Positions 42,465-46,367 of a stretch of 64,000 nt of DNA are shown here, one piece after another (within the stretch, counting starts at the first letter, position 1; each line of letters begins with the position of its first letter). The stretch comes from Thermoproteota archaeon (GTDB taxonomy: Archaea > Korarchaeota > Korarchaeia > Korarchaeales > Korarchaeaceae). Location of the stretch: contig JAOZFH010000028.1 of NCBI GenBank assembly GCA_027491415.1, forward strand, positions 1 through 64,000. Direction: 5' to 3'. The notes beneath the pieces were generated by a model. That model was not told the DNA's origin, did not search any database, and saw nothing but the letters and a program-made list of their open reading frames with translations. Made by a program: the position numbers and the translations under genes.

Positions 42465-43007
42465 CTGTCCCCTCCTGACGAGTCCCGCGAGCATGCCGAG
42501 AGGATCTCTGTCAGCCGATGGATTGCACTGGCTCTCAACGGGCCCCCGATCGCGCTTTTGCTGACGGCAGCGTACGCCGCCGTCTCTCTGGGCGTGAGGG
42601 ACGCGCTGATCCCCATGCTCTTCTTCTACTTCTTCCTCCAGGCGAGCGTACTATTTCTGCTGAACAGGTACGGGGTCATGACGCTCAGGATCTCTCGTGG
42701 GATTGTCAAGGTGTCGTACGCAGGGGGAGATCTCAGAATACCGGCTGACGTCGTCGAGGCAGCCTGCGTTGTGAGGGTTAGCGCGCTTAGGGTATCTCTG
42801 CTCGCCGCGAGGCCTCTTGGCAGGACCCTAACCCTCGTTATGAGGGGCGGGCCCGCCATCAAGCTCAGACTGGTCGAGCCCATGCGAACACCGGTCGGAG
42901 AGGTTGAAGAGGTCCTGATTTCGACTGCCAGACCCGCTGACGCCCTTAATACCCTAGAAGCAAACGGATTTCCAGTTCAACGGGCTGAGCCACTCACCGA
43001 TCGCTGA
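42465..43007 (+). CDS. Two-TM protein with PH-like cytoplasmic domain
   Basis: Two hydrophobic segments (ALALNGPPIALLLTAAYAAV and ALIPMLFFYFFLQASVLFLL) precede a beta-rich domain of about 90 residues (TLRISRGIVKVSYAGGDLRI onward) of the bacterial PH-like type. The first TTG in frame (42558) would cut through the first helix; the coding frame extends upstream with no ATG, GTG or TTG. A CTG at 42465, 6 nt after GAGGTGAG, is the likeliest start. Function unknown. Confidence 0.55.
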   Translation: MSPPDESREHAERISVSRWIALALNGPPIALLLTAAYAAVSLGVRDALIPMLFFYFFLQASVLFLLNRYGVMTLRISRGIVKVSYAGGDLRIPADVVEAACVVRVSALRVSLLAARPLGRTLTLVMRGGPAIKLRLVEPMRTPVGEVEEVLISTARPADALNTLEANGFPVQRAEPLTDR

Positions 43008-43047: not shown

Positions 43048-43842
43048 CTACTCCTCCTCGTCCCCCTCTCCCGCGATGTCCAATCCGAGCTCCCTAGTTA
43101 TCTCTGCCACTATTTCATCTTCGTCCAGCTCCTCCTCTAAGAGTTGGTTGGAGTCGTAGTCCGGCTTTCTAACGTCTCTTGGGAGTTCCACCCGCCTCAG
43201 GGCGATTGCCCTCCTAATTGGGTGCATCTCCACGCTCACCAATGCCCTCGCCACGTTCTCCATCGTGGCCTCCTGGAACACTATCTTGGAACCGTCCCGT
43301 AGGATAAACAGCGTCCTAGCGTGCTTGTGCCCCTTGGGGACACCAAAGAGTACTCGCTCCACGTCCCTATTTCTAACGACGACCGAGAACGGCCTCTTGA
43401 GTTCCCTCAAGAGCTCCCTGGTCGAAGACGTCAGCCTGAGCTTGAGCGCCTGATCCAGGGGGACCCACCTGACCTCCTTCGCGTCGCCACCGGGTTTGAG
43501 AGATCCCCCAACCTGCCTGCACAGGAAGTCCACTACGACGTAGTGGTACTTCACGTTCCTCTCGCCGTCCCTCTCTATGTAGTCGAAGGCGTAGATCGGC
43601 CTGACGGGCTCGACCTCCAGACCGGTCTCCTCCAGCATCTCCCTCACGCAGGCCTCCTTCAGGGTCTCCCCTAGCCTCACGTGCCCGCCCGGTATGGACC
43701 ACAGGCCGGCTCCCGGCTCCCTCTTTCTCCTCACCAGCAGGACCTTCTCTTCCCTGAGCAGAACTCCCCCGACGCCGACTATGGGGGTCGGGGGGTATTC
43801 TCTGAACTCCAACCCGCCCCCTCCCGCACCCCTCTTTCGCAA
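43048..43842 (-). CDS. Nudix hydrolase fused to an unknown C-terminal domain
   Basis: Residues 10-150 are a Nudix domain with the complete box [19 protein letters not shown] after PGGHVRL. Nudix enzymes hydrolyse nucleoside diphosphate derivatives. Residues 150-264 form a separate domain ([20 protein letters not shown], then [18 protein letters not shown] and a very acidic tail) that I cannot assign. The tail ends EGDEEE. The fusion may target the hydrolase to a partner or substrate. Confidence 0.8.
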
Positions 43843-43853
43843 AAATCTGGCGG

Positions 43854-44720
43854 CTACCCACGGCCCGATGGGAACGTCACGCGGGCTAGCAACCTCCTCG
43901 CAGCCCCTATCGCCGTGGCGTAGGTTGCGTTCTCAGGGACTACCGCGCGCCCCCCAAACAGCTCCACGGTGTGGATCACAGTCTTTGCGACCAGCTCCTC
44001 CTCGGCAAGTCTACCGACGAGCACGATGCTGTCCTCCAGCTCGGCGGCCCTGGCCGCGAGGACCGCCACCGTCCCGACGACCTGTCCGACGAGGTTAACG
44101 ATCCCGGCGGCCACGTCAACAGGCCTAGTCCAGTCCCCGACCTTACCGAAGTTGGACGCCGTGGCGTCGGGTGGGAGCATTCCAACCCCCCTGCCGACTA
44201 TGTCGCCTACGGTTAGGTCTACGCGGGTGAGGTCCCCCTCCCTCGCCATCTCCAGCACGCTGTCGACGCTGCTCTTTCCTAGGATGAGCCTCCCAAGTCC
44301 GGCCAGAGTGCCGCCTCCCACGGCGGTTCCGCCGAGGTGCTCGACGCGCATGCACGCTCCCTCTCCCCAGGCGCCCACGACCGCGGTTCCCGTTCCTATG
44401 CTCACTACCGCGGCCCTGTCCCTCCCGGAGAGGTAGCATCCACCCACGCCGATCGCCTCTATCTCATCGATCTTCTCGGCCCTGACCCCGAGCAGCCTGT
44501 TGGGGAGTCTGTTTGCGCCTCCGCCGGTGAGGGCAATGCTGGCCAGCTCGTCCACCCCTACACCTGACTCGAGGATCAGCTTGCCCAGCGCCCCCATTGC
44601 CGATGAGACCGAGTCCGAGGCGGAGACATCGGCGAAGCCCTTGATCTCACTCTCGGTGACCAGGACGGCCTTGGTGGCCGTCCCACCCACGTCGAGGCCC
44701 GCTATGAGCAAGTCGTTCAC
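43854..44720 (-). CDS. Type II pantothenate kinase-like protein (BadF/ASKHA fold)
   Basis: An actin-fold kinase of about 288 residues: phosphate 1 motif [15 protein letters not shown], then [13 protein letters not shown], the glycine run [19 protein letters not shown] and [11 protein letters not shown], and a final [12 protein letters not shown]. The TGTG, GGGTLxGL and ASNFG motifs match type II pantothenate kinases (CoaW). Most archaea make phosphopantothenate from pantoate by another route, so this would give a salvage step. GTG 44720 begins 1 nt after the upstream stop; the longer frame to 44789 overlaps it. Confidence 0.75.
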
Positions 44721-44721
44721 C

Positions 44722-45333
44722 TCACCCCGCCGAGGTCCGTGCCAAGTCCTGCGCATCGGCCCTTGCCCTCTTCCCCACCGCCCTCCCAACCGCCCTGATC
44801 AGGGGAGGAACCACCAGGTACAGGAAGGGGGCCTCGGTGACGAAGGTCCAGGCGGCCACGCTCGCCCCCGCCGCTAGGCTGAGGGGAGTCATCTCGGAGT
44901 GGAACGGTAGGAGGAAGAACCGGCTCCAGATGGTGAGGCCCAACCCTATCCAGATGGACCCCACCGCGAGGCCGAGGGTGTTGGCCAGCAAGAGCCTCTT
45001 CACGCTCGACTCTCTGTCGGTGAGCGCGCCTATGATGTAGAAGCCGAGGAAGTTGGCTGGCACTCCGACCGTCAGGCTGAGGAGCGCCATCCCGTGGGAT
45101 GCCATGTCCGACAGGAAGATGCCTATGGCTGCCGAGGCCCCGCCCACCCAGGGCCCGAACAGGGTCGCGAGGGTCGAAGGTATCACCACGGCGGGCCAGA
45201 ACCTGACCCCCATGAAGTTGAGCCCGAGGACGCCGAGCCACGTGAGGTAACCCACCCCAGCGTATAGGGCGGCGCCTATCCCGGTTACGACGGCCTCGAA
45301 GGTGCCGAACCTCCCCCTTCCCACGCCCCCCAC
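44722..45333 (-). CDS. ECF transporter S-component-like membrane protein
   Basis: A 203-residue protein with six hydrophobic helices and the S-component features: an amphipathic start, a long first helix (AVVTGIGAALYAGVGYLTWL), FGPWVGGASAAIGIFLSD and a GFYIIGAL segment. S-components bind vitamins and use a shared ATPase module encoded elsewhere. The neighbour directly downstream is a pantothenate kinase, so pantothenate or a related precursor is the best guess. A TATA-like AAATTTTAACC region (45357-45367, minus strand) lies 25 nt upstream. Confidence 0.75.
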   Translation of the reverse strand: MGGVGRGRFGTFEAVVTGIGAALYAGVGYLTWLGVLGLNFMGVRFWPAVVIPSTLATLFGPWVGGASAAIGIFLSDMASHGMALLSLTVGVPANFLGFYIIGALTDRESSVKRLLLANTLGLAVGSIWIGLGLTIWSRFFLLPFHSEMTPLSLAAGASVAAWTFVTEAPFLYLVVPPLIRAVGRAVGKRARADAQDLARTSAG

Positions 45334-45419
45334 CTTCCGCGCCAGGAAGCGTCAGAAATTTTAACCTATTTAATGACGAGTATTTCTTCTATAGAGGTAT
45401 ATAGATTCGGGGTGGGATC

Positions 45420-46367
45420 GTGCCTGTCAGGAGGCTCCAGGAGGTGGGGGGAGGGTCCCTCTCAATCACGCTGCCGAAGGGTTGGGCGAAGAGACAGGGG
45501 CTCGGCAAGGGGAGCCTCGTAGTCATCGAGGAGTCCCCAACGGGGGCCCTAACGGTCGTGCCGGCTGAGCCGAGGGAGGCCGTGACGACGATTTCCCACT
45601 CCCCCGGAGACGTTCGAGGGACCGTTAGGAAGCTGTTCGCCGCATATCTGGACGGGTACGACGTCATAGACGTGGTCTCAGAGGGGTTCATACCCTCTGA
45701 AGACAGGTCGGTCATCAAGAGGGCGGCCTCGGCGCTCCCCGGCCTAGAGGTCCTAGGAGAGGAGGCGTCCAAGATATCCCTCAGGTGCGTCCTGGACCCG
45801 AGCCTCCTCAACCCGAGGGAGCTGATGACCAGGCTGGGGGACTTGGTTGCCGGGATGCTCAGGGACCTCTCCCGAGCGATGGAGTCTGGAGGCGCAGATC
45901 TGGCAGAACTCGTGGCCGAGAGGGACGACGAGGTGGACAGGCTCTACTTCCTGCTTGTCAGACTCGTTAGGAAGTCGGCCATGGATCCCTCGCTGGCCTC
46001 GAAGTCGGGCTTATCTCCGGCGGAGCTGATAGACTACAGGGTCGCCGCCCTCCTCCTCGAGTCGGCCGCCGACAGCCTGGTCCTGCTCGCGAGGTCCTAT
46101 CGAGTCTTCGGCGCGCCTGAGCCCGAGCTGGCGAGGGTCTCCGGATCGGCGGCCGACCTGGTGAGGAGATGCCTCCAGGCCCTCCTCGAGAGGGACGTCT
46201 CCTCCGCTGTGGAGGCGCAGTCCTCTGCCCGGTCGTTGGAGAGAGAACTCGCCGGATATGAGGGCCCAGCCGCGAGGTCGGCCGACTACCTCGGAGACGT
46301 ACTAGACCGGCTGATCGACGTGTGCGACCTCGTCTCCCCGGGCGCCGGGCACCAGACCCTGACGTGA
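45420..46367 (+). CDS. AbrB-PhoU phosphate uptake regulator
   Basis: A 315-residue archaeal PhoU. The N-terminus is a SpoVT/AbrB DNA-binding domain (RRLQEVGGGSLSITLPKGWA), followed by two PhoU helical bundles (residues 90-315) with E/D-x-x-x-D pairs such as ERDDEVDRLYFLLVR. In archaea this fusion regulates phosphate transporter genes by binding DNA directly. No pst genes are adjacent. GTG start at 45420; GTATATAG lies at 45398-45405. Confidence 0.85.
   Translation: MPVRRLQEVGGGSLSITLPKGWAKRQGLGKGSLVVIEESPTGALTVVPAEPREAVTTISHSPGDVRGTVRKLFAAYLDGYDVIDVVSEGFIPSEDRSVIKRAASALPGLEVLGEEASKISLRCVLDPSLLNPRELMTRLGDLVAGMLRDLSRAMESGGADLAELVAERDDEVDRLYFLLVRLVRKSAMDPSLASKSGLSPAELIDYRVAALLLESAADSLVLLARSYRVFGAPEPELARVSGSAADLVRRCLQALLERDVSSAVEAQSSARSLERELAGYEGPAARSADYLGDVLDRLIDVCDLVSPGAGHQTLT

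Follow-up and report, generated by a model that had tools for sequence, protein, structure and literature searches.

A 64,000-nucleotide stretch of korarchaeal DNA (the window, which is the whole stretch analysed) carries a gene for an ECF-type S-component next to a gene for a type II pantothenate kinase (PanK)-like protein, raising the question of which compound the two proteins would import and phosphorylate. The original prediction named pantothenate. Here we infer another substrate for both proteins, together with their joint action and their coupling to an ECF module: the pair is probably a pantetheine salvage unit that combines ECF-driven pantetheine uptake with a pantetheine kinase. The S-component would capture extracellular pantetheine or else an oxidised form of it (pantethine, for example), and a shared ECF module, with EcfT encoded elsewhere in the genome, would deliver it. 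The kinase would phosphorylate pantetheine, PPAT and then the archaeal GTP-dependent dephospho-CoA kinase would carry the resulting 4'-phosphopantetheine on to CoA, and the steps of pantoate kinase, PPS, CoaB and CoaC would be skipped.

The gene pair and its proteins

The window lies on contig C43 of a genome of 1.78 Mb in 63 contigs (96.3% complete, 1.1% contaminated). The features around the pair are as follows.

43048-43842, minus strand: Nudix hydrolase (PF00293, 1.3e-26), downstream of the kinase gene on the same strand
43854-44720, minus strand: Fumble / type II PanK-like kinase of 288 aa with a GTG start at 44720 (PF03630, 1.4e-25); proposed pantetheine kinase
44722-45333, minus strand: ECF transporter S-component of 203 aa with a GTG start (PF07155 and PF12822); proposed pantetheine/pantethine-binding subunit
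45334-45419, no strand: intergenic stretch of 86 nt between the regulator-like gene and the S-component gene; likely promoter region
45420-46367, plus strand: protein with AbrB-like and PhoU domains (PF04014, PF01895), divergent from the S-component gene; possible regulator

The ORF listing and the sequence place the S-component stop codon at 44724-44722 and the kinase start codon at 44720, leaving a gap of 1 nt; coordinates and Pfam matches thus agree with the predicted succession of an S-component and a type II PanK-like gene. In the 86-nt stretch no Rfam family approached its cut-off, and a scan that does not cover archaeal promoters found no sigma-70-type site; the search for RNA elements gave one sub-threshold match only. 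AbrB-like/PhoU homologues are divergent from the S-component gene in loci L002, L003, L017, L018 and L022, and L055 has a PhoU-like one. At the other end of the locus, the Nudix hydrolase carries a conserved C-terminal extension of about 115 aa, and an ORF before it (42558-43007, 149 aa) has no Pfam or NCBIfam match. The order kinase, Nudix, NadM in locus L059 resembles the parts of bacterial NadM-Nudix fusions.

We sampled 25 genomes of the order, of which 14 are termed good here (completeness of 90% or more, contamination of 5% or less). The kinase is present in 22 of the 25 and in all 14 good ones; the three genomes that lack it are 86%, 63% and 66% complete, and a sister genome to that of the window has a near-identical kinase. 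Co-occurrence in relatives, which the original prediction had suggested checking, is complete: the S-component gene lies directly upstream of the kinase gene on the same strand in 22/22 kinase loci of the order, and the pair is therefore not a chance adjacency. A Nudix homologue adjoins the kinase in 17 of these 22 loci.

The kinase passes the Fumble threshold (PF03630, 90.6 bits against a cut-off of 28.5). It shares with type II PanKs (S. aureus CoaW; the human and yeast PanKs) the fold, the glycine-rich GTGT segment and the Glu of the catalytic-base column, and S. aureus PanK is its top match both by structure and by sequence: a structure search with the kinase model (mean pLDDT 88) returned it first at E 6.7e-18, and S. 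aureus PanK structures also lead the sequence search. It differs from type II PanKs in scoring below both curated NCBIfam cut-offs (PRK13317, 1.8e-60 and 204.6 bits against 234; TIGR00555, 112.1 bits against 247.6) and in its setting: an S-component accompanies it, and CoaB is lacking from most of the host genomes that were examined. The original prediction would have been refuted by a grouping with N-acetylglucosamine or other ASKHA kinases, but PanKs lead every search, and the type II PanK-like identity stands. A sugar or other ASKHA kinase was rejected on a BcrAD/BadF score of 24.6 bits, under the 31.5 cut-off, and by structure, where a dehydratase activator comes no higher than rank 50 of the match list.

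Residue counts and the tree cover 89 distinct kinases, after removal of duplicated loci and of one remote ASKHA protein (L023 in genome G022, 40 bits). Glu86 (codon 44463-44465, minus strand) is Glu in 89/89 and aligns with Glu70 of S. aureus PanK, which we take to be the catalytic base. His128 (codon 44337-44339, minus strand), in the column before the GG motif, is His in all 89 as well, whereas S. aureus PanK has an Arg there. This residue, Arg113 as counted in the printed alignment, is presumably the counterpart of Arg207 in human PanK3. The available part of PMC8366970 describes Arg207 of human PanK3 as binding pantothenate. Judged by sequence, the invariant His128 is the mark of a separate kinase subfamily. 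As a marker of the substrate it was rejected: it is common to genomes with and without CoaB and so does not tell which compound is used. Two motifs (residues 105-115 and 186-194) served to select the kinase relatives, so part of the conservation seen at residues 107-112 and 188-192 follows from the selection itself; Glu86 and His128 are free of this bias. In the tree, the archaeal kinases linked to S-components, together with those of G025 and G026, form one group of 38 rows with a support of 93/96, which falls under the 95/80 mark, and the Korarchaeota and Nitrososphaeria loci fall together with a support of 100/98.

The 203-aa protein is an S-component by Pfam score (PF07155, 35.6 bits; PF12822, 31.7 bits; both over cut-off) and by a six-helix S-component fold. 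Its model (pLDDT 91) matches 4hzu_S with a VIA-align Z of 18.0 over 161 residues and an rmsd of 2.4, followed by RibU (Z 16.3), ThiT (15.9) and PanT (14.4 and 13.9); FolT also matches. The presence of PanT among these structures would suit a pantothenate ligand, but PanT is equalled or surpassed by RibU and ThiT, and the fold therefore says nothing about the ligand. Assigning a ligand from the fold was accordingly rejected, with RibU, ThiT, FolT, PanT and others all matching. A sequence search against solved S-component structures gave no match, and what came up were GPCRs and other chance matches. The EcfT family is present in 25/25 genomes of the order, with two matches in the window genome (on contigs C49 and C4).

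CoA pathway genes in the order

Gene content separates the late steps of CoA synthesis from the earlier ones. Archaeal PPAT scores over its cut-off in 14/14 good genomes of the order (22/25 overall), and the archaeal DPCK family (DUF359) is likewise found in 14/14 (23/25 overall). None of the 14 good genomes has a match for PPS (1/25 overall), for CoaB (DFP, PF04127; 2/25 overall, one of them, in G001, under the cut-off at 17.9 bits), for the CoaC-type flavoprotein (PF02441; 3/25 overall) or for PanB (0/25 overall). In 14 well-known control genomes, DFP and the flavoprotein were each found in 14/14, PanB in 11/14 and PPS in the four archaea. The window genome itself has PPAT (C17) and DPCK (C60) and no PPS, DFP, flavoprotein or PanB match. 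One flavoprotein match in the order (L142, in G009) was rejected as CoaC, since its best model is dihydromethanopterin reductase; another is L143, in G016.

With the CoaB and CoaC families absent, 4'-phosphopantothenate would have no known way on, and because PPAT, which uses phosphorylated pantetheine, and DPCK are both present, pantetheine fits better than the pantothenate of the original prediction. The idea of a route that replaces the pantoate kinase and PPS pair fared better. The 2008 Korarchaeum genome paper reportedly noted missing CoA genes. PPS is absent from all 14 good genomes, and a 2019 review, in the part of its text that was available, lists Korarchaeota and Bathyarchaeota among archaea without pantoate kinase and PPS and names no replacement (PMC6650551). 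The pair described here offers such a replacement in Korarchaeota, and the missing CoaB and CoaC suggest pantetheine as its substrate.

We consider it unlikely that the pair instead serves pantothenate uptake and phosphorylation, with enzymes unrelated to CoaB and CoaC carrying 4'-phosphopantothenate to 4'-phosphopantetheine. The closest characterised kinases are pantothenate kinases, which favours that reading, but it requires two unrelated replacement enzymes, or one double one, in genomes where both families are missing and the controls were found in full.

One genome of the order departs from this pattern. In G022, CoaBC, a GHMP (pantoate kinase-like) protein and PPS are encoded in a row on contig C15 (L159:1035-4422). 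C15 may or may not belong to G022: the 2.9 Mb assembly has 6% contamination, yet GC content does not set C15 apart. The row also holds a different S-component-like membrane protein, which may be a pantothenate or pantoate S-component; a homologue lies near PPS in L158 (G040).

Relation to known pantetheine and pantothenate systems

The proposed route has a bacterial parallel in the pantetheine shunt (Apn variant), in which the kinase, CoaD and CoaE steps are likewise kept and CoaBC is missing; the corresponding gene pattern (CoaBC absent; PPAT, DPCK and a PanK-type kinase present) occurs in 14/14 good genomes of the order. According to the accessible portion of PMC11487621, CoaA of E. coli and B. 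subtilis phosphorylates pantetheine, a side activity of this PanK, and rescues the loss of coaBC with pantethine. The Apn variant is assigned to 91 gut strains, mostly Bifidobacterium and Clostridiales, in the part of PMC6593275 available to us. In contrast to the bacterial shunt, the proposed one is archaeal and its kinase is joined to an S-component of its own. Full-text searches of a collection of open-access papers found no description of the shunt in archaea or of a pantetheine ECF transporter; the bacterial shunt is already known, and the archaeal version and the paired S-component appear to be new against the literature searched.

The CoaA precedent also bears on a reading with a bifunctional kinase and an S-component of wide ligand range: the family would use both pantothenate and pantetheine, and only the pantetheine branch would still reach CoA in Korarchaeota. 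Both activities reside in CoaA of E. coli and B. subtilis, as the same portion of PMC11487621 states, and the mixed genomic settings of the kinase set out below would suit such an enzyme. For Korarchaeota, however, this reading overlaps with the pantetheine salvage unit, and as a separate explanation we regard it as quite improbable.

Known importers offer partial likenesses. ECF PanT of Firmicutes and PanU (YhfU) of B. subtilis have the same S-component fold (4rfs_S, 6zg3_C) and feed CoA synthesis, but they carry pantothenate, whereas the present protein matches no solved S-component in sequence. A form of pantetheine is imported, and the upper CoA pathway bypassed, by yeast Opt1 and B. subtilis TcyJKLMN; unlike the present pair, they are unrelated non-ECF types that take mixed disulfides and have no paired kinase gene. 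Import of pantetheine as mixed disulfides by an OPT-family protein in yeast was reported in a 2025 paper, which, in its available text, called pantetheine uptake mechanisms unresolved before that result (PMC12406275). Of the roughly 90 predicted pantetheine auxotrophs in a gut survey, only 12% have a known vitamin B5 transporter, as given in the accessible part of PMC6593275. Dedicated pantetheine importers are largely unknown, and the candidate S-component-kinase pair provides a protein to test.

Kinase-bearing genomes outside the order

The CoaB search was extended to 36 distinct kinase-bearing genomes (18 archaeal, 18 bacterial). The archaeal set comprises all 15 non-korarchaeal loci together with G025-G028, with L070/G032, which has the contig, place and score of G025, counted once; on the bacterial side 49 kinase loci were found and 18 genomes were taken into the search. 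A kinase relative was also looked for in viral contigs, and none was found. DFP had no match in 13 of the 18 archaeal genomes and none in 13 of the 18 bacterial ones, where two genomes gave partial matches of 24-25 bits; these counts refer to kinase-bearing genomes only, most of them without a stated completeness. MAG incompleteness alone is an unlikely cause of the missing CoaB in these genomes, and the recurrence of this lack in archaea and bacteria argues against the pantothenate reading. Two of the 18 archaeal genomes gave a PPS match.

The pairing also extends beyond the order. Of the 18 archaeal genomes, 14 have an S-component of the same family adjacent to the kinase, and 12 of these 14 are without a DFP match. 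In eight the two genes share a strand (G027, G028, five Nitrososphaeria or close-relative loci and one from Bathyarchaeota), and in six they lie head to head (Bathyarchaeota and one uncultured archaeon). Among the four genomes without an adjacent S-component is G026 (L054), where about 1.5 kb on each side was read. In two Clostridia loci (L126 and L136) a different S-component (PF12822) lies directly upstream of the kinase.

Other neighbours also favour pantetheine. In Bathyarchaeota (L079, L080, L089 and L130) PPAT comes after the S-component gene in the same orientation, and the Theionarchaea locus L100, from a genome with no DFP or PPS match, has PPAT immediately upstream of the kinase gene. 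In L092, from a genome that has DFP and PPS, the kinase gene begins about 10 nt after that of a transporter of the OPT family, to which the yeast pantetheine importer belongs.

The kinase also occurs with CoaB: together with PPS in G025 and G040, and with CoaB alone in G026, G027 and G028, so that, with the genomes that have neither, three settings are seen. In G025 a single small gene separates it from CoaBC. The presence of CoaB without a PPS match in G026, G027 and G028 supports the pantothenate reading for these genomes, and some archaeal kinase homologues therefore probably act on pantothenate. The kinase of G026-G028 probably works as a pantothenate kinase, and the S-component found with it in G027 and G028 may carry pantothenate.

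Some neighbours come from NAD metabolism, and a salvage pair related to NAD, for example one for nicotinamide riboside uptake and phosphorylation, is a further reading. NadM is the gene after Nudix in L059, 13/25 genomes of the order have weak NadM-like matches at the corresponding position next to the kinase, and in a Nitrososphaeria locus nicotinate phosphoribosyltransferase (L067:3190-4407) lies directly upstream of the pair. We nevertheless hold this reading to be highly improbable: niacin salvage by nicotinate phosphoribosyltransferase and NadM does not require a kinase of this type, the kinase family is linked to PanKs alone, and the partner in Bathyarchaeota and Theionarchaea is PPAT rather than an NAD gene. 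ORFs of like length occupy the place of the L067 nicotinate phosphoribosyltransferase in L068, L069, L071 and L086.

Because of the CoaB settings of G025-G028, the C15 contig of G022 and the NAD gene neighbours, we call pantetheine salvage by the korarchaeal pair probable and no more than that. A wider claim, which we put forward tentatively and with some doubt, is that a dedicated ECF pantetheine/pantethine importer and a His-type pantetheine kinase family exist, and that pantetheine auxotrophy is obligate in Korarchaeota and in several further lineages of archaea and bacteria. If so, such organisms, dependent on pantetheine rather than vitamin B5, would live off the CoA breakdown products of their neighbours. 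Pantetheine salvage would explain CoA synthesis in archaea that lack CoaBC, pantetheine is a growth factor to try in the cultivation of uncultured archaea, and the kinase without CoaBC can serve as a marker for searches in other genomes.

Bacterial kinase homologues adjoin further transporter genes, namely a DASS anion symporter in Bacteroidota (L102:3397-4893) and a putative vitamin transporter (Vut_1) in Anaerolineaceae (L076:4025-4750).
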